The position numbers were made by a program, and so were the translations under genes. Shown one piece after another: positions 33,921 to 41,084 of a stretch of 64,000 nucleotides of DNA. This stretch comes from Dyella japonica A8. Lineage in GTDB: Bacteria > Pseudomonadota > Gammaproteobacteria > Xanthomonadales > Rhodanobacteraceae. Under the pieces are notes generated by a model, which did no database searches, had not been told where the DNA came from, and was given only the letters and a program-made list of their open reading frames with translations. The stretch is taken from positions 2,232,001 through 2,296,000 of the forward strand of contig NZ_CP008884.1 in assembly GCF_000725385.1 (NCBI RefSeq), given 5' to 3'. Each line of letters begins with the position of its first letter. The stretch's first letter is position 1.

Positions 33921-33949
33921 TTGCATGGCAGCGAAATTCCCGTCATGAT
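33921..33949 (+). promoter_or_regulatory. candidate promoter of arg leader/argF'
   Basis: TTGCAT (33921-33926) and CATGAT (33944-33949) are 17 bp apart, placing transcription start near 33956, about 20 nt before the leader ORF. Matches to consensus are modest. An 11-bp palindrome TTGAA-G-TTCAA (33949-33959) overlaps the expected start; it is too short to be called an operator. Confidence 0.35.
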
Positions 33950-33974
33950 TGAAGTTCAACCACCCGGAACTTTC

Positions 33975-34079
33975 ATGTCCGCAGCCGTCTATACCGCCAC
34001 TGTCCTCACTAGCGCCCGCATGGCCGCTGGGATGACGTCGCGTGCTCGCCGACCGCTGCTCCGCCAATTGGCCGGGTAG
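33975..34079 (+). CDS. putative arginine leader peptide
   Basis: An unannotated 34-codon ORF ending 99 bp before argF'. It has Arg at codons 15, 23, 25, 26 and 30, with the cluster SRARRPLLR near the end, and stops at TAG 34077-34079. GGAA lies 5 nt before the ATG. Its last codons (34071-34077) can pair with the 5' arm of the terminator that follows. This is the layout of ribosome-stalling attenuation leaders. GC-rich DNA yields Arg codons readily, so the peptide alone is not proof. Confidence 0.45.
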   Translation: MSAAVYTATVLTSARMAAGMTSRARRPLLRQLAG

Positions 34080-34121
34080 GCTGTCGCACGCGTTTAACGT
34101 GCATCGACGACAAAACCCGGC
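34071..34121 (+). promoter_or_regulatory. candidate antiterminator of the arg attenuator
   Basis: GCCGGGT (34071-34077, the end of the leader ORF) is complementary to ACCCGGC (34115-34121), which is the 5' arm of the terminator. Between them GTCGCACG (34083-34090) pairs with CGTG-cat-CGAC (34098-34108). A ribosome stalled at Arg codons 23-26 would leave 34071 onward free and allow this fold; one reaching the stop codon would cover it. Confidence 0.45.
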
Positions 34122-34139
34122 TTACAGCCGGGTTTTTTT
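34112..34139 (+). terminator. intrinsic terminator upstream of argF' (attenuator)
   Basis: AAAACCCGGC (34112-34121) and GCCGGGTTTT (34127-34136) pair around TTACA and the T-run continues to seven T's. It lies between the leader ORF and argF', not after any annotated gene, so it should govern read-through into argF'. Confidence 0.8.
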
Positions 34140-34178
34140 GTTTCCGGGATTCGACATTCGACAAGGGCAACTTCCACC

Positions 34179-35186
34179 ATGACGCTCCGCCACTTTCTGA
34201 CCACCCAGGATTACAGCCGCGCCGAGATCGACGCGTTGCTCGATGAAGCCGCGGCCTTCAAGCGCTCCCCCCGCGGCCAGCAGCTGGCCGGCAAGTCGGT
34301 AGCGCTGATGTTCTTCAACCCGTCGATGCGCACCCGCACCAGCTTCGAGCTGGGTGCGTTCCATCTGGGCGGCCACGCCATCGTGCTGGCGCCGGGCAAG
34401 GATGCATGGCCGATCGAGTTCGAGGTCGGCACCGTGATGGACGGCGATACCGAGGAGCACATCGCGGAAGTCGCCCGCGTGCTGTCGCGCTACGTGGACC
34501 TGATCGCCGTGCGCGCCTTCCCCAAATTCCAGGACTGGAAGGTGGATCGCGAGGACAACGTCATCAAGGCGTTCGCCAAGTACGCCACGGTGCCGGTGAT
34601 CAACATGGAAACCATCACCCACCCCTGTCAGGAGCTGGCGCACGCACTGGCGCTGAAGGAGCACCTGGGCAACCTGCAGAACAAGAAGTACGTGCTCACC
34701 TGGACGTACCACCCCAAGCCGCTCAACACGGCCGTCGCCAACTCCGCGCTGCTGATCGCCACCAAGATGGGCATGGACGTGACCCTGCTGTGCCCCACGC
34801 CGGACTACGTGCTCGACGAGCGCTACATGGCCTTCGGCTATCAGAACGCGAAGGAAAACGGCGGTTCGCTCAAGGTGAGCCACGACATCGAGGACGCCTA
34901 TCGCGGCGCCGACGTCGTCTACGCCAAGAGCTGGGGCGCATTGCCGTTCTTCGGCCAGTGGGACAAGGAAAAGCCCATCCGCGACGCCAACAAGCACTTC
35001 ATCGTGGACGAGGCAAAGATGGCGCTGACCAACAACGGCCTCTTCAGCCACTGCCTGCCGCTGCGCCGCAACGTCAAGGCCACGGACGCGGTGATGGATT
35101 CGCCTGCCTGCATCGCCGTCGATGAAGCAGAGAACCGCCTGCACGTGCAGAAGGCGGTGATGGCCTCGCTGATCGGCCAGCGCTGA
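34179..35186 (+). CDS. argF': N-acetylornithine carbamoyltransferase
   Basis: A 335-aa transcarbamylase using N-acetyl-L-ornithine instead of ornithine, as in Xanthomonas. It shows carbamoyl-phosphate motif FFNPSMRTRTSFELGAF, the acetylornithine-type loops FEVGTVMDGDTEEHIAEVARVL (core MDGDTEEHIAE) and FPKFQDWKVDRED, HPCQELAHAL, and HCLPLRRNVKATDAV, whose Lys is the residue carboxylated in the Xanthomonas enzyme. It heads the arginine cluster behind the putative attenuator; paiB follows after 2 bp. Confidence 0.95.
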   Translation: MTLRHFLTTQDYSRAEIDALLDEAAAFKRSPRGQQLAGKSVALMFFNPSMRTRTSFELGAFHLGGHAIVLAPGKDAWPIEFEVGTVMDGDTEEHIAEVARVLSRYVDLIAVRAFPKFQDWKVDREDNVIKAFAKYATVPVINMETITHPCQELAHALALKEHLGNLQNKKYVLTWTYHPKPLNTAVANSALLIATKMGMDVTLLCPTPDYVLDERYMAFGYQNAKENGGSLKVSHDIEDAYRGADVVYAKSWGALPFFGQWDKEKPIRDANKHFIVDEAKMALTNNGLFSHCLPLRRNVKATDAVMDSPACIAVDEAENRLHVQKAVMASLIGQR

Positions 35187-35188
35187 TC

Positions 35189-35812
35189 ATGTACCAGCCC
35201 GCGCATTTCAAGGTGGCCGACAGCGATCAGCTGCACGCGCTGATGCGCGCGTACCCGTTCGCCACCGTGGTGACGAACGGGGAAGGCGGCCTGGCTGCCA
35301 ACCACCTTCCGCTTGAGCTGGTCGACGGCAAGCTCCACGGCCACGTGGCACGCGGCAACGAACTGTCGGGCATAGATGGCGTCGAGGTGTTGGTGATCTT
35401 CCGCGGTCCGGACGGTTACGTGAGTCCGAACTGGTACCCGAGCAAGCGGGAAACCCATCGCGAAGTGCCGACGTGGAACTACGCCGTCGTGCACGTGCAT
35501 GGCCGCCTGCGTACGGTCAGCGACGCTGCGTGGTTGCGCCAACTGCTGGAGCGCCTGACGGATCGCCATGAAGCGGGCCAGCCGGAGCCGTGGCGTGTCT
35601 CCGATGCACCGGAAGACCACATTGAAAAGATGCTGCGCGCCATCGTCGGGCTGGAGATTTCCATCGACCGCATCGAAGGCAAGTTCAAGCTCAGCCAGAA
35701 CCATCCCGCCGCCAATCGGGCGGGTGTGCTCGCAGGGCTGGGCGAGCGGGCCGGCCGTGGCGATGCGGAGTTGGCGGCTCTCATGTCTCAACAGGAAGAG
35801 GTGCGCCGGTGA
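35189..35812 (+). CDS. FMN-binding negative transcriptional regulator, PaiB family
   Basis: A 207-aa split-barrel flavin-fold protein. MYQPAHFKVAD at the start, AYPFATVVTNGEGGLAANHLPL, the VSPNWYPSK segment and VPTWNYAVVHVHG are hallmarks of the PaiB family (Bacillus PaiB represses sporulation and protease genes). No DNA-binding motif is evident, so regulation is inferred from the family name only. Tightly packed between argF' and osmC. Confidence 0.88.
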   Translation: MYQPAHFKVADSDQLHALMRAYPFATVVTNGEGGLAANHLPLELVDGKLHGHVARGNELSGIDGVEVLVIFRGPDGYVSPNWYPSKRETHREVPTWNYAVVHVHGRLRTVSDAAWLRQLLERLTDRHEAGQPEPWRVSDAPEDHIEKMLRAIVGLEISIDRIEGKFKLSQNHPAANRAGVLAGLGERAGRGDAELAALMSQQEEVRR

Positions 35813-36288
35813 GCCATACGCATCAGCACCAGTACAAGGTCGACGTGACCTGGACGGGCAACCAGGGTGCCGGTACCCGGACGTACCAGAGCTATGGCCG
35901 GGACCATGAGATCCGCATCGCCGGCAAGCCCGCGCTGGAAGGCTCGGCCGACCCGATGTTCCGCGGCGACGCCAGCAGGCACAACCCCGAGGACATGCTG
36001 GTGACGGCCCTGTCCACCTGCCACATGCTGTCGTACCTGCACCAGGCGGTGCTGGCGGGCGTGGTGGTTACGGCCTATACGGACAGCGCCGAAGGCACGA
36101 TGGAAACGGACGTCCATGGCGGCCACTTCACCGAAGTGGTGCTGCACCCCGTGGTCACCATCACGGCCGACAGTGACCCGGTCAAGGCCGTGGACGCACA
36201 TGACGGTGCCCACCACGGATGCTTCATTGCCAGTTCCGTGAACTTCCCGGTGCGCGTCGAGCCCCGCATCGTGGTTGAATCTGTTTAA
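35809..36288 (+). CDS. OsmC-family peroxiredoxin-like protein
   Basis: A 159-aa OsmC/Ohr-fold protein. The two redox cysteines are present in [14 protein letters not shown] and [10 protein letters not shown], at the usual OsmC spacing. Family function is reduction of organic hydroperoxides; the substrate is unknown here. The start is GTG 35809, overlapping the paiB stop as GTGA, with GGAAGAGG upstream. It is embedded in the arginine cluster between paiB and argG. Confidence 0.87.
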
Positions 36289-36329: not shown

Positions 36330-37520
36330 ATGAGCAAAGACATCGTTCTCGCCTTCTCCGGTGGCCTCGACACCAGCTTCTGCGTTCCCTACCTCAAGGA
36401 GCGCGGCTGGGCCGTCCATACCGTTTTCGCCGACACGGGCGGCGTGGACGCCGAGGAGCGCGCCTATATCGAGCAGCGCGCCAAGGAGCTGGGCGTGGCC
36501 AGCCATGTCACCGTCGACGGCGGCCCGGCGATCTGGAACGGCTTCGTGAAGCCGTTCGTGCAGGCCGGTGAGGCCTATCAGGGCCAGTACCCGCTGCTGG
36601 TGTCCGATCGCTACTTGATCGTGGATGCGGCCATTGCCCGCGCCAAAGAGCTGAGCACCAAGGCCATCGCGCACGGCTGCACCGGCATGGGCAACGACCA
36701 GGTGCGTTTCGACCTGGCCGTGAAGGCGCTGGGCGACTACGAGATCGTGGCGCCCATCCGCGAGATCCAGAAGGAGCACACCCAGACGCGCGCTTATGAG
36801 CAGGCCTATCTGGAAGAGCGCGGCTTCGACGTGCGTGCCAAGCAGAAGAGCTACACCATCAACGAGAACCTGCTGGGCGTGACCCTGTCTGGCGGCGAGA
36901 TCGATCATTGGAAGACCCCGGGCGAGGGTGCCCGTGGCTGGTGCAAGCCGCGCTCCGAATGGCCGTCCGACAAGCTGTCGGTCACCCTCGGCTTCGAGAA
37001 GGGCGAGGCCGTGTCGCTCAACGGCGAGAAGCTGCCGGGCGCCAAGTTGCTGGCCAAGCTCAACGAGCTGTTTGCCCCCTACGGCGTCGGCCGCGGCATG
37101 TATACCGGCGACACCACCATCGGCCTCAAGGGCCGCATCGTGTATGAGGCGCCGGGGCTGATCTCCCTGCTGGCCGCGCACCGCGCGCTGGAAGAGGCCG
37201 TGCTGACCAAGCAGCAGAACCGCTTCAAGCCGGAAGTGGCGCGCAAGTGGGTGGAGGTGGTGTACGAAGGCTTCTTCCACGACCCGATCAAGACGGATCT
37301 GGAGGCGTACCTGGCCTCCAGCCAGAGCCAGGTCACCGGCGAGGTGGTGCTGGAAACCTCCGGTGCGCAGGTGACGGCGGTGGAAGTGCGCTCGCCGCAC
37401 ATCCTCAATGCCAAGGGCGCGACCTACGCCCAGTCGGCCGACTGGGGCGTGGCGGAGGCCGAAGGCTTCATCAAATTGTTCGGCATGAGCAGCACGCTGT
37501 GGGCCGAGATCAATCGCTGA
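36330..37520 (+). CDS. argG: argininosuccinate synthase
   Basis: A 396-aa enzyme joining citrulline and aspartate with ATP. The PP-loop [18 protein letters not shown] is at the N terminus, and [28 protein letters not shown] and the C-terminal multimerisation part follow. In this pathway citrulline comes from deacetylation of acetylcitrulline by the next gene. A 41-bp AT-richer gap precedes it. A REP pair follows within the operon. Confidence 0.94.
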
Positions 37521-37655: not shown

Positions 37656-38792
37656 ATGAGCGCATTACTGGACGACACCCTTCGACATCTTCGCGCGCTG
37701 GTCAGTTACGACACGCGCAATCCGCCGCGCGAGATCGGTACCGGCGGCATCTTCGATTACCTGCGGGACAACCTGCCGGGTTTCGACGTCACCGTGACCG
37801 ATTACGGCGCCGGCGCCGTGACGCTTTACGCCGTGCGTGGCAAGCCGAAAGTGCTCTTCAATGTGCACCTGGACACCGTGCCCGATTCCCCGCATTGGAC
37901 GGCCAGCCCGCATGAGCTGCGCGTCACGGAAGACCGCGCCATCGGCCTGGGCGCCTGCGACATCAAGGGCGCGGCCGCTGCACTGGTGGCCGTGGCGAAT
38001 GTCACCAAGGGTGACATGGCGCTGCTGCTGTCCACCGACGAGGAAGCGAACGATCCGCGTTGCATCGCCGGCTTCCTCAAGGACAAGCCGGCCTATGACG
38101 CCATCATCGTCGCCGAGCCGACCAAGGGCGAGGCGGTGCTGGCGCATCGTGGCATCCATTCCGTGCAGATGCGCTTCAAGGGCAGTGCCGGCCATGCCTC
38201 GGGCGAGCAGAAGCCCAGCGACAGCGCCGTGCATCAGGCGGTGCGCTGGGGCGCGGCGGCGCTCGACTACGTGGAGAAGCAGGCGCACGAACGCTTTGGC
38301 GGCTTGACCGGCTTGCGCTTCAACATCGGTCGCGTGGATGGCGGCATCAAGGCGAACATGATCGCGCCCTCGGCCGACGTGCGCTTTGGCTTCCGTCCGC
38401 TGCCGACCATGGCTCCGGCCGAGCTGCTGCACACCTTCCGCACGCTGGTCGAACCCCATCCGGTGTCGTTCGAGGAGCTGTTCCACGGTGATTCGTTGCC
38501 GGCGGGCGACACCGCCACGGCGGAAGCGCGCCGCCTGGCTGCGCGCGACCTTGCGGACGAGCTGAACATTCCCATCGGCAACGCCGTGGACTTCTGGACG
38601 GAGGCGGCGCTGTTCTCCGCGGCCGGTTACATCAGCTTCGTCTACGGCCCCGGCGACATCGCCCAGGCGCATACCGCCGACGAATGGGTCTCGCTGGATC
38701 AGCTTGGGCACTACGCCGACACCATCTACCGCATCATCAGTGATAAGTCTGGTCAGGGACGGCCAGTTTTTGATTCTCGCGCTCATGGATGA
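37656..38792 (+). CDS. argE': N-acetylcitrulline deacetylase
   Basis: A 378-aa M20 metallo-hydrolase releasing citrulline from N-acetylcitrulline. The metal and catalytic sites are visible: VLFNVHLDTVPDSPHW, GLGACDIKGA, and STDEEANDPRC; the dimerisation domain begins near HRGIHSVQMRFKG, and HTADEW provides the last ligand. Overall similarity to the Xanthomonas acetylcitrulline deacetylase, together with argF', makes this substrate preferred over acetylornithine or succinyl-diaminopimelate. Confidence 0.92.
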   Translation: MSALLDDTLRHLRALVSYDTRNPPREIGTGGIFDYLRDNLPGFDVTVTDYGAGAVTLYAVRGKPKVLFNVHLDTVPDSPHWTASPHELRVTEDRAIGLGACDIKGAAAALVAVANVTKGDMALLLSTDEEANDPRCIAGFLKDKPAYDAIIVAEPTKGEAVLAHRGIHSVQMRFKGSAGHASGEQKPSDSAVHQAVRWGAAALDYVEKQAHERFGGLTGLRFNIGRVDGGIKANMIAPSADVRFGFRPLPTMAPAELLHTFRTLVEPHPVSFEELFHGDSLPAGDTATAEARRLAARDLADELNIPIGNAVDFWTEAALFSAAGYISFVYGPGDIAQAHTADEWVSLDQLGHYADTIYRIISDKSGQGRPVFDSRAHG

Positions 38793-38807
38793 GCGCAAAG
38801 GATGATT

Positions 38808-40124
38808 ATGGAAGCCCACAAGCACACCCGGAAAACCATCGTCCGCCTGCTTTCGAGCATGGGCAGCGCGAAGGAGATCCAGCAATACCTCAAGCGCTTC
38901 TCGCAGCTCGACGCCAAGCGCTTCGCCGTGGTGAAGGTCGGTGGCGCGGTGCTGCGCGACGATCTGCCGGCGCTGACGTCCTCGCTGACCTTCCTGCAGC
39001 AGGTGGGCCTGACGCCCATCGTGCTGCATGGCGCGGGCCCGCAGCTCGACGAAGAGCTGTCGGCCGCCGGTATCGAGAAACACACGGTGAACGGCCTGCG
39101 CGTGACCACGCCCAAGGCGCTGGCCATCGTGCGCAAGGTGTTCCAGGACCAGAACCTGCGCCTGGTCGAGGCGTTGCAGACCATGGACACCCGCGCCACC
39201 TCGGTGCTGTCGGGCGTGTTTACGGCAAGCTATCTGGATCGCGACACCTACGGTCTCGTGGGCAAGGTCAGCAGCATCAACCTGGCGCCGATCGAGGCCA
39301 GCTTGCGCGCCGGTTCCATCCCGGTGATCGCCAGCCTGGGCGAGACGGAGGAGGGCCAGATCCTCAACGTCAACGCCGACTTCGCCGCCAATGAACTGGT
39401 GCGGGTGCTGCAGCCGTACAAGATCGTGTTCCTTACCGGCACGGGCGGGCTGCTGGACGACAAGGGCAACATCATCGACTCGATCAACCTCAGCACCGAG
39501 TTCGAACACCTGATGTCGCAGCCGTGGATCAACGGCGGCATGCGCCTGAAGATCGAGCAGATCGCCGACCTGCTGAACGACCTGCCGCTGACCTCGTCGG
39601 TGTCCATCACCAAGCCGTCCGAGCTGGCCAAGGAGCTGTTCACCCACAAGGGTTCCGGCACCCTGGTGCGGCGCGGCGAAAAGGTGAAGCGCTTCGAGTC
39701 ATGGGAGGGCATCGACCTGGCGCGCATGCGTGAGCTGATCGAGTCCAGCTTCGGCCGCGCGCTGGTGCCGGATTATTTCGAACGCACCACGCCGTTCCGC
39801 GTCTATGTGAGCGAAAACTATCGCACCGCGATGATCCTCACCCTGGAAGACGGCCTGCCGTACCTCGACAAGTTCGCCGTGCTCGACGATGCGCAAGGCG
39901 AGGGTCTGGGGCGTGCCGTGTGGCAGGTGATGCGCGAAGAGAACCCGCAGCTGTTCTGGCGCTCGCGCCACGGCAACGCCGTCAACCATTTCTACTACGC
40001 CGAATCGGATGGCTGCCTCAAGCAGCCGCGCTGGAAGGTGTTCTGGTATGGCATCGAAGCTTTCGACACGATCGCCCGTTGCGTCGCGCATTGCGCGCAG
40101 CGGCAGCCGACCCTGGTGGACTGA
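38808..40124 (+). CDS. argAB: bifunctional N-acetylglutamate synthase/kinase
   Basis: A 438-aa fusion giving the first two steps of arginine synthesis. Residues ~30-285 are an amino-acid kinase domain ([38 protein letters not shown]), and ~290-438 a GNAT-type acetyltransferase ([28 protein letters not shown] in part; [14 protein letters not shown]). This matches the Xanthomonas NAGS/K enzyme. ATG 38808 (MEAHKH) is preferred over 38802 because AAAGG would otherwise touch the start codon. argC follows after 3 bp. Confidence 0.94.
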
Positions 40125-40127
40125 GAC

Positions 40128-41084
40128 ATGAGCACGACCAAACATCGCATCGGCATCGTGGGTGCCCGTGGCCATACTGGCGCCGAGCTGATCCGCCTCG
40201 TCGCCGCGCATCCCGCGCTGGAGCTGGCTTTCGTATCCTCGCGCGAGCTGGACGGTCAGCGCGTGGCCGACCACGTGGACGGCTTCACCGGCGACCTGCG
40301 CTACGCCAGCCTCGATGCCGAGGCCGTGGCGGCGCAGGGCGCGGACGTGGTGGTGCTGGCCTTGCCCAACGGCAAGGCAGCCCCGTATGTCGAGGCCATC
40401 GACAAGGTGAAGCCCGATACGCTGATCGTTGACCTGTCGGCCGATTACCGCTTCAACGAGAAGTGGTACTACGGCCTGCCGGAATTGACCCGCGGGCGTT
40501 GGCGCGGCGAGAAGCGCATCAGCAATCCTGGTTGCTATGCGACGGCGATCCAGCTGTCGATCGCGCCGCTGAAGGACCTGCTGGCGGCACCGCCGGTGAG
40601 CTTCGGTGTGTCGGGCTACTCGGGCGCCGGCACCACGCCATCGGACAAGAACGACCCGGAAAAGCTGCGCGACAACCTGATGCCGTACTCGCTCACCGGT
40701 CATATGCACGAGAAGGAGGCGAGCCGCCACCTCAACGTGCCGGTGGAGTTCATGCCGCATGTGGCCCCCCATTTTCGTGGCCTCACCGTTACCACCAACC
40801 TGTACCTGGCTCGCCAGGTGAAGCGCGAGGACATCGTTAGCCGCTTCAACGCCGCCTACGAAGGCGAGAAGCTGGTGCACGTGGTGGACGAGGCGCCGTG
40901 GGTCAGCCAGATCGCGCACAAGCACCACGTGGATATCGGCGGCTTCGCCGTGTCCAACGACGGCAAGCGCGTGGTGGTGGTGGCGACCCTGGACAACCTG
41001 TTGAAGGGCGCGGCGACCCAGGCCATGCAGAACATCAACCGCGCCATCGGCGTGGACGAGTACACGGCTATACCGATGGTTTGA
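40128..41084 (+). CDS. argC: N-acetyl-gamma-glutamyl-phosphate reductase
   Basis: A 318-aa NADPH-dependent reductase for the third step. The Rossmann start [17 protein letters not shown], the catalytic Cys in [12 protein letters not shown], and [11 protein letters not shown] and [12 protein letters not shown] are all in place. It starts 3 bp after argAB and is followed by a REP pair before argH. Confidence 0.95.

Follow-up and report, generated by a model that had tools for sequence, protein, structure and literature searches.

Ribosome-mediated attenuators are present in the his, trp, thr, leu, ilv and phe operons of Proteobacteria, and proteobacterial attenuators are said to have been studied comparatively by Vitreschak in 2004. 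The leader upstream of argF′, the N-acetylornithine carbamoyltransferase gene, in Dyella japonica A8 shares with these systems an open reading frame (ORF) carrying codons for the product of the pathway, an antiterminator strand at the end of that ORF and an intrinsic terminator in front of the first structural gene. Unlike them, it would be specific for arginine, and in the clade of this genome it contains only three conserved Arg codons, while about 24 residues of its peptide are frozen. Classical attenuator leaders conserve codons, not residues, and relative to these the freezing of the argF′ leader peptide is a surprise. A second group of described systems is that of the arrest peptides, which include SpeFL, TnaC, SecM, ApdA and the fungal arginine attenuator peptide. 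By its description, the argF′ leader resembles these in having a conserved nascent peptide at the presumed stall site, upstream of the regulated gene; it differs from them in that the argF′ leaders of more distant families have no conserved peptide. The motif at the presumed stall site is RARRP, and not the arrest-peptide motif RAGP or RAPP.

Arginine control in Proteobacteria is usually told through the repressor ArgR. A leader peptide also precedes carAB, which is common to the arginine and pyrimidine pathways, in Pseudomonas aeruginosa, where control by pyrimidine is attributed to possible attenuation and the effect of arginine to the transcriptional level (PMC4997734). This leader shares with ours a peptide and a suspected attenuation, and differs in the gene concerned and in that the possible attenuation is ascribed to pyrimidine and not to arginine. 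Our search of the open-access (PMC) literature found no published arginine attenuator in the order, the name Xoo5 lying outside the scope of that search. From comparative sequence evidence, we consider it very probable that the argF′ leader senses arginine through ribosome-mediated transcription attenuation and in this way controls the arg cluster from argF′ on.

The argF′ locus of Dyella japonica A8

The window analysed here is a stretch of 64,000 nucleotides (64 kb) from a genome of 4.83 Mb, and all of the features described below lie on its plus strand. The gene argF′ (34179–35186; Pfam OTCace_N and OTCace) is the first gene behind the proposed switch, and is followed by genes for an FMN-binding protein (35189–35812; Pfam), an OsmC-like protein (35809–36288; Pfam), an argG-like product (36330–37520; an ORF named by eye), an M20 deacetylase resembling argE′ (37656–38792; Pfam), a kinase-NAT fusion resembling argAB (38802–40124; Pfam) and an argC-like product (40128–41084; likewise an ORF named by eye). 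The two genes without an arginine connection, FMN-binding and OsmC-like (35189–36288), interrupt the arg cluster between argF′ and argG.

Upstream of argF′ lies an ORF of 34 codons (33975–34079), which ends in the TAG codon at 34077–34079 and encodes MSAAVYTATVLTSARMAAGMTSRARRPLLRQLAG, with Arg at codons 15, 23, 25, 26 and 30. It is followed by an intrinsic terminator (34112–34139), consisting of a stem of 11 pairs with a loop of 3 (34112–34136) and a U tract extending to 34139. A sequence-only reading of this DNA had proposed an arginine attenuator with precisely this ORF, these Arg codons and this terminator, all of which we found where it had placed them. It had also conceded that the Arg enrichment is modest, and this is true of the single peptide of the window. 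The assignment of the ORF rests on the conservation of its frame and on the frame test described below. Within it, codons 19–27 (34029–34055) form the core GMTSRARRP, and Arg23 (CGT), Arg25 (CGC) and Arg26 (CGA), at 34041–34052, are the presumed stall sites on the grounds of sequence and conservation. The peptide belongs to no known family in NCBIfam and to none above the Pfam cut-off.

Two features of the region count against the attenuator reading: the ribosome site of the leader ORF is weak, and a consensus promoter scan upstream of argF′ found no promoter. By eye, we recognized a possible promoter-like pair, TTGCAT and CATGAT separated by 17 nt (33921–33949), which is a weak match; this block is kept with small differences in 12 plus-strand loci of the genus.

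The 5′ strand of the putative antiterminator, GGCCGGGT (34070–34077), is supported by spacing, by the predicted fold and by RNAalifold. Its bases GCCGGGT (34071–34077) are complementary to ACCCGGC (34115–34121), so that the 5′ arm of the terminator doubles as the 3′ strand of the antiterminator. This complementarity had been pointed out in the sequence-only reading, which set all seven bases before the stop codon; the pairing stands, but T34077 is the first base of TAG. G34070 adds a G-U pair, giving an antiterminator helix of 8 pairs. An inner helix of the antiterminator hairpin (34082–34109), in which 34082–34086 pairs with 34105–34109, appears in the predicted fold of the nascent RNA and is absent from the RNAalifold consensus of both the f1 and the f2 sets (the sampled families of the order are numbered f1 to f12).

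The locus thus has, as in known attenuators, a coding ORF before the cognate operon, a cluster of cognate codons (Arg at three of codons 23–26) and a terminator between the two. The further property that had been claimed for it, a terminator and a ribosome-gated antiterminator that exclude each other, agrees with the sequence, the spacing and the predicted fold.

How often would such an arrangement arise by chance? A terminator-like site alone is unremarkable, as one was found in the 1-kb region against 1.1 expected from shuffled sequences. We used a detector that combines an ORF, an Arg cluster, an antiterminator strand and a terminator. In the 64-kb window, it responded in 5 of 2546 overlapping tiles, all at the argF′ leader, and in one of 232 upstream regions of mechanically called ORFs of at least 100 amino acids, again that of argF′. 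It was positive at all 80 named f1 relatives versus 93 of 116960 dinucleotide shuffles of the same set, at 58 of the 60 loci L160–219, and at 17 of the 29 loci L220–249 versus 48 of 119074 shuffles of that set; the 12 missed loci count against the reading, and because the rule was set after the sequences were known, the false-positive rates carry more weight than the hit rates.

Conservation of the leader peptide

We compared 100 close argF′ loci, made up of 20 genomes of the genus and 80 named loci (Dyella, Rhodanobacter, Frateuria, Luteibacter, Fulvimonas and MAGs), with some genomes present in both. The leader frame and the core are found at all 100, the start being replaced by adapter sequence in two, and the consensus is MSxAVYTAxVLTSAR[M/A]AAGMTSRARRPLxxxxAG. 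Arg15 and Arg30 vary among relatives, and Arg23, Arg25 and Arg26 are invariant both in these loci and in the more distant fetched loci described below. Two records in this material deserve comment. The contig of Dyella sp. ASV24 (L032:1-176; L005 near 2700) starts with about 100 C and an adapter-like stretch that truncates the leader ORF at its 5′ end, which is an assembly artefact. The record L072, titled Candidatus Eremiobacteraeota, has an argF′ 91% identical to that of the window and a leader of the Dyella type, and is probably a misassigned bin.

The frame was examined in 79 distinct f1 leaders, which were picked by a motif on the stop side and not by the core, making the test free of core-selection bias; L005 and L032 (adapter), L101 (diverged N-terminus) and 18 duplicate leaders were left out. 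The core GMTSRARRP is present in all 79. Over codons 4–27, there are 296 synonymous and 49 nonsynonymous changes, whereas the same test gives 2:350 and 50:339 for the other two frames, with a neutral expectation of 29% synonymous. Codons 28–32, with 27 synonymous and 140 nonsynonymous changes, are neutral-like, and codons 33–34, which form part of the antiterminator strand and also of the anchor motif, are fixed. Judged from these substitutions, strong amino-acid selection on the leader peptide reaches Pro27 and then ends, and the constraint on the peptide extends well past the Arg codons. A constraint that stops there is consistent with a nascent chain whose role falls at the decoding of Arg26 or Pro27.

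The choice of codon is also restricted. CGA occupies codon 26 in 79 of the 79 f1 leaders and in 165 of 168 distinct leaders, the latter having been chosen by the GMTSRARR pattern, so that their residues 19–26 are invariant by construction; in argF′ itself, CGA makes up 33 of 2518 Arg codons (1.3%) over 160 loci. A slow codon at a stall site may heighten sensitivity, and the near-fixation of CGA26 fits such a role. An alternative reason is provided by RNA structure, since RNAalifold of the leader ORF predicts a small 5-bp hairpin, UCGCG/CGnCGA, over codons 22–26 (34038–34052), and both TCG (codon 22) and CGA (codon 26) are nearly fixed in the window and its relatives. The predicted hairpin may account for these fixed codons as well as the use of a slow codon would.

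How far does this peptide extend? Of 299 genomes of the order, 161 contain the exact GMTSRARR pattern, with one copy per positive row and none for the reversed control pattern. The positives comprise 76 of 76 in f1, 3 of 3 in f3, 7 of 10 in f4 and, by subtraction, 75 in f2, where three rows are without it; the pattern is absent from all f5–f12 genomes searched. A peptide model matches 176 of the 299 genomes at E≤0.01, and its matches in f8–f12 are weak (E about 3e-4 to 0.01). Outside the order the peptide was not found, as the 3 of 274 genomes of the class that match at E≤1e-4 all belong to this order. In the 60 fetched loci (distant f1, f2, f3 and f4; those of f2 had been collected by the peptide model itself), argF′ follows the leader in every case, at a distance of 72–368 nt in the 59 that were read in the correct frame. 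No core was found in L217, which was omitted and whose genome is represented as L226. The sequence-only reading had suggested alignment across relatives as a check on the attenuator, and the frame, Arg23, Arg25 and Arg26 and the pairing of antiterminator with terminator are all kept in f1–f4.

The antiterminator and terminator

Both the antiterminator strand and the terminator hairpin were located by sequence in 167 of the 168 distinct leaders. Measured from the start of Arg25, the antiterminator strand begins at 24 nt in 151 of these and at 21–27 nt in all 167; it is retained even where the ORF stops early (L189, L192, L213 and L215). The usual form in f1 is GCCGGGT/ACCCGGC/GCCGGGT, against GCTGGGT/ACCCAGC/GCTGGGT in most of f2, a consistent change in all three strands. 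At the position that changes, the 159 leaders of standard form have 119 C:G pairs, 34 T:A pairs, 4 T:G wobbles, 1 C:A and 1 G:G mismatch, a count that omits eight of the 167 rows, with other antiterminator forms, and L225, whose terminator was unmatched. Tree-based analysis of covariation, using a poorly resolved tree of partial argF′ sequences, gave 6–7 changes, 2 starred independent pairs and a median p of 1 in the sign test; so small a number of independent events counts against the attenuator reading.

In RNAalifold predictions from 84 f1 and 38 f2 sequences, the sole helix is the pairing of the antiterminator with the terminator arm, comprising 7 pairs. An anti-antiterminator would allow termination without a ribosome; as a candidate for it, the antiterminator strand pairs with codons 14–18 in the alifold of the f1 leader, and no such pairing appears in f2. 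When a ribosome is stalled at Arg26, the antiterminator predicted for the nascent RNA has −24.4 kcal/mol, versus −16.9 kcal/mol for the terminator alone, and in the full-length RNA past the ribosome the predicted fold has the terminator formed. Because this full-length fold favours the terminator, the order of synthesis must matter, and classical attenuators depend on it in the same manner.

Leaders in more distant families

We hand-picked 30 genomes from f3–f12, of which 29 had readable upstream DNA, L234 being dropped because of a contig edge. Seven of the 29, in f3 and f4, have a leader of the GMTSRARR type, with the variant SMTSRARR in L222. In 18 others (f5 and f7–f11), we found unrelated short ORFs with runs of Arg, each followed by a terminator hairpin; examples are NPRRRRVLQSTAG, VVVRRRRPLRQ, LRRESSRRRRC and VVVRRNRRRI. 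These 18 leaders contain 106 Arg among 541 residues, against 26.0 expected from the composition of argF′. CGA accounts for 29 of the 106 leader Arg codons versus 34 of 590 in the argF′ genes of the 30 loci (Fisher p 6.5e-10). In 17 of the 18, the end of the nearest counted Arg codon lies 9–19 nt ahead of the antiterminator strand; the minimum of 9 was set by the script, which left uncounted any Arg codon ending closer, and for L231 none was found. For Arg26 of the window, this distance is 17 nt. Four of the Arg-run leaders (L241, L243, L246 and L247) lie in AT-rich DNA, with an upstream GC content of 0.30–0.37. Drift of the peptide with retention of the Arg codons and their spacing is as codon-based sensing of arginine predicts.

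No leader was seen upstream of argF′ in L229 (f6), in L242 and L248 (f10) or in L249 (f12), and the leaderless loci L229, L242 and L248 count against the attenuator reading. Of the 12 sampled families, 10 have at least one genome in which an arginine-codon leader was seen in front of argF′. In L238 (f8), the leader ORF is repeated before argF′, and we saw a terminator behind the second copy but none behind the first.

Distribution of ArgR

A profile search for ArgR (PF01316) gave no match in 291 of the order's 299 genomes, nor in that of D. japonica A8 itself; in the control for this search, it was found in 9 of 14 genomes. The eight genomes with a match (4 among the 244 of good quality) all belong to f12: G165, G174, G182, G189, G195, G201, G213 and G219. 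G195 is the genome of L249, the sole f12 locus examined, which has ArgR and no leader. argF′ was found at E≤1e-60 in 267 of the 299 genomes, and the ArgR-positive f12 genomes have weak argF′ matches (E about 1e-61 to 1e-75), with none for G201; these genomes may use an ordinary OTCase. Since the usual repressor mostly seems to be absent, the leader could be the control of the arginine pathway in this order. The proposal of an arginine attenuator, originally drawn from a single stretch of DNA, is thus supported by comparative genomics, and we regard this support as decisive, because the outgroup peptides are unrelated and yet keep their Arg codons and spacing, and because ArgR has no match in 291 of the 299 genomes.

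Relationship to sRNA Xoo5

Over its full length, the leader of the window matches the Rfam family RF02242, sRNA Xoo5, with 35.9 bits and an E-value of 4.6e-6 in a permissive search of 311 bases, which is below the gathering score of 50. This score was passed by five of the 15 loci given (L188, L191, L183, L182 and L161), all of them in f2, with 65.8–145.6 bits and a match at the position of the leader. We take these matches as evidence that the leader RNA in f2 is homologous to sRNA Xoo5. The argF′ orthologue of L183 closely matches structures of N-acetylornithine carbamoyltransferase, which presumably come from Xanthomonas campestris; together, the RF02242 matches and this structural match suggest that f2 corresponds to Xanthomonadaceae.

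In the source paper, sRNA-Xoo5 of X. oryzae is a transcript of 124 nt, with a 5′ end determined by RACE, located between PXO_00354 and PXO_00353; Northern blots gave bands at about 130 and 100 nt, with two transcripts early in growth and later only the short one (PMC3039613). The paper also identifies PXO_00353 as N-acetylornithine carbamoyltransferase and PXO_00352 as argininosuccinate synthase, and lists both among the proteins lowered in the sRNA-Xoo1 mutant (PMC3039613). The two genes are numbered consecutively, and counterparts of the FMN-binding and OsmC-like genes may be absent there. According to that text, Xoo5 is likely to be Hfq-independent, targets were sought by proteomics for Xoo1, 3 and 4 only, and the word “arginine” is absent from the main text (PMC3039613). 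Seven sRNA deletion mutants, including that of Xoo5, are reported there to have no phenotype in growth (rich or minimal medium) or virulence (PMC3039613). The absent growth phenotype counts against an attenuator, though derepression need not yield one.

RF02242 is filed as ‘Gene; sRNA’, and its model of 124 positions ends about 33 nt before the U tract. The predicted terminated leader in Xanthomonas-like loci, at 155–157 nt, is longer than the Xoo5 bands and the 124-nt clone, which counts against the attenuator reading; processing or rough sizing may explain the mismatch. In four of the five loci, position 1 of the model is 2 nt before the leader AUG, which implies that translation there would begin almost without a 5′ UTR. 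Leaderless translation is therefore possible in L188, L191, L183 and L182, where the Xoo5 model begins 2 nt before the ORF, and possibly also in L222, L237, L239 and L240, where by eye the ORF comes shortly after a TATA-like element.

Proposed mechanism and alternative explanations

How might the leader act? We propose that a ribosome would translate the 34-codon ORF as the leader emerges from RNA polymerase. If charged Arg-tRNA were scarce, the ribosome would stall at Arg23, Arg25 or Arg26, with its front edge near 34066, a position based on the standard ribosome footprint. The strand at 34070–34077 would then be left free to pair with 34115–34122, the antiterminator would form, and transcription would continue into argF′. 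If arginine were plentiful, the ribosome would reach the stop codon, which overlaps the antiterminator strand, and by covering this strand would allow the terminator to form. The stalling, which is the least supported step, the direction of the response and the effect on the whole operon are deduced from this arrangement, and stalling in the clade of the window is perhaps helped by the frozen nascent peptide.

This last point leads to the strongest rival, an arrest of the nascent chain in which the stall would be set mainly by GMTSRARRP in the exit tunnel together with a ligand, more than by the supply of Arg-tRNA; the ligand could be arginine, an intermediate such as N-acetylornithine, or none, with the same RNA switch as the readout. 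The constraint on non-Arg residues up to Pro27 and not beyond (296:49 versus 27:140) speaks for it, as does the presence of the core in all distinct f1 leaders and the extension of GMTSRARR to f2–f4. However, the peptides of the outgroups are unrelated and carry Arg runs at a similar spacing, and the rare codon CGA, near-fixed at Arg26 and enriched in the outgroups, suggests a readout at the level of codons. Moreover, a stall at RARRP would switch the operon on, and an arrest induced by arginine would therefore have the wrong sign for a biosynthetic operon. On balance, we hold this explanation to be unlikely but worth serious attention; it overlaps the attenuation reading and the two do not exclude each other.

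It is less probable by far that the leader senses general translation stress, such as slow decoding of CGA or the action of antibiotics, and not arginine. The frequency of CGA26 (165 of 168 distinct leaders, chosen by pattern as noted, against 1.3% of Arg codons in argF′) would fit such a sensor, but several kinds of Arg codon cluster in the outgroup leaders, the genes controlled are those of arginine biosynthesis, and no second leader of this type was seen by eye in the 600 nt before the organism's own carA. More improbable still is a small RNA acting in trans, with the ORF and switch merely incidental. Xoo5 has been described as an sRNA in X. oryzae and in Rfam RF02242, and its two bands change with growth phase, but the X. 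oryzae study judges it likely to be Hfq-independent (PMC3039613). The leader reading frame is under selection, and the RNA lies before argF′ at the loci examined and has the anatomy of an antiterminator and a terminator. The idea of an ordinary terminator of the upstream gene behind a chance ORF, to which GC-rich DNA that easily yields Arg-codon ORFs, terminator-like sites expected by chance and a detector rate above zero in shuffles (48 of 119074; 93 of 116960) lend some colour, has a negligible probability, being refuted by the conserved frame and switch and opposed by the Arg runs of leaders in AT-rich DNA. A T-box or riboswitch was rejected, as the window has no Rfam match at gathering level and none of these was among the 12 matches at E≤1.

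Beyond attenuation itself, we offer a tentative scenario, which we rate as somewhat less probable than its negation, for f1–f4, the Rhodanobacteraceae- and Xanthomonadaceae-like families. Here, an ancestral attenuator that counted Arg codons would have become a frozen arrest peptide, in which the nascent chain up to Arg26-Pro27 and the near-obligatory CGA sense arginine status in the ribosome; it would serve as the main regulator of the arg cluster, replacing ArgR, and the orphan ‘sRNA Xoo5’ would be its leader RNA. The likelihoods that we attach to the attenuator, to the arrest-peptide rival and to this scenario overlap, and are not meant to add up to certainty.

The leader RNA was already known in Xanthomonas, and what appears to be new is the role, the spread and the peptide. 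If the attenuator reading is true, arginine joins the amino acids sensed by ribosome-mediated attenuation, and the orphan Rfam sRNA Xoo5 gains a function. The series of leaders within this order, from plain Arg runs in the outgroups to the frozen peptide, would make sensing by codons and sensing by the nascent chain separable by experiment.
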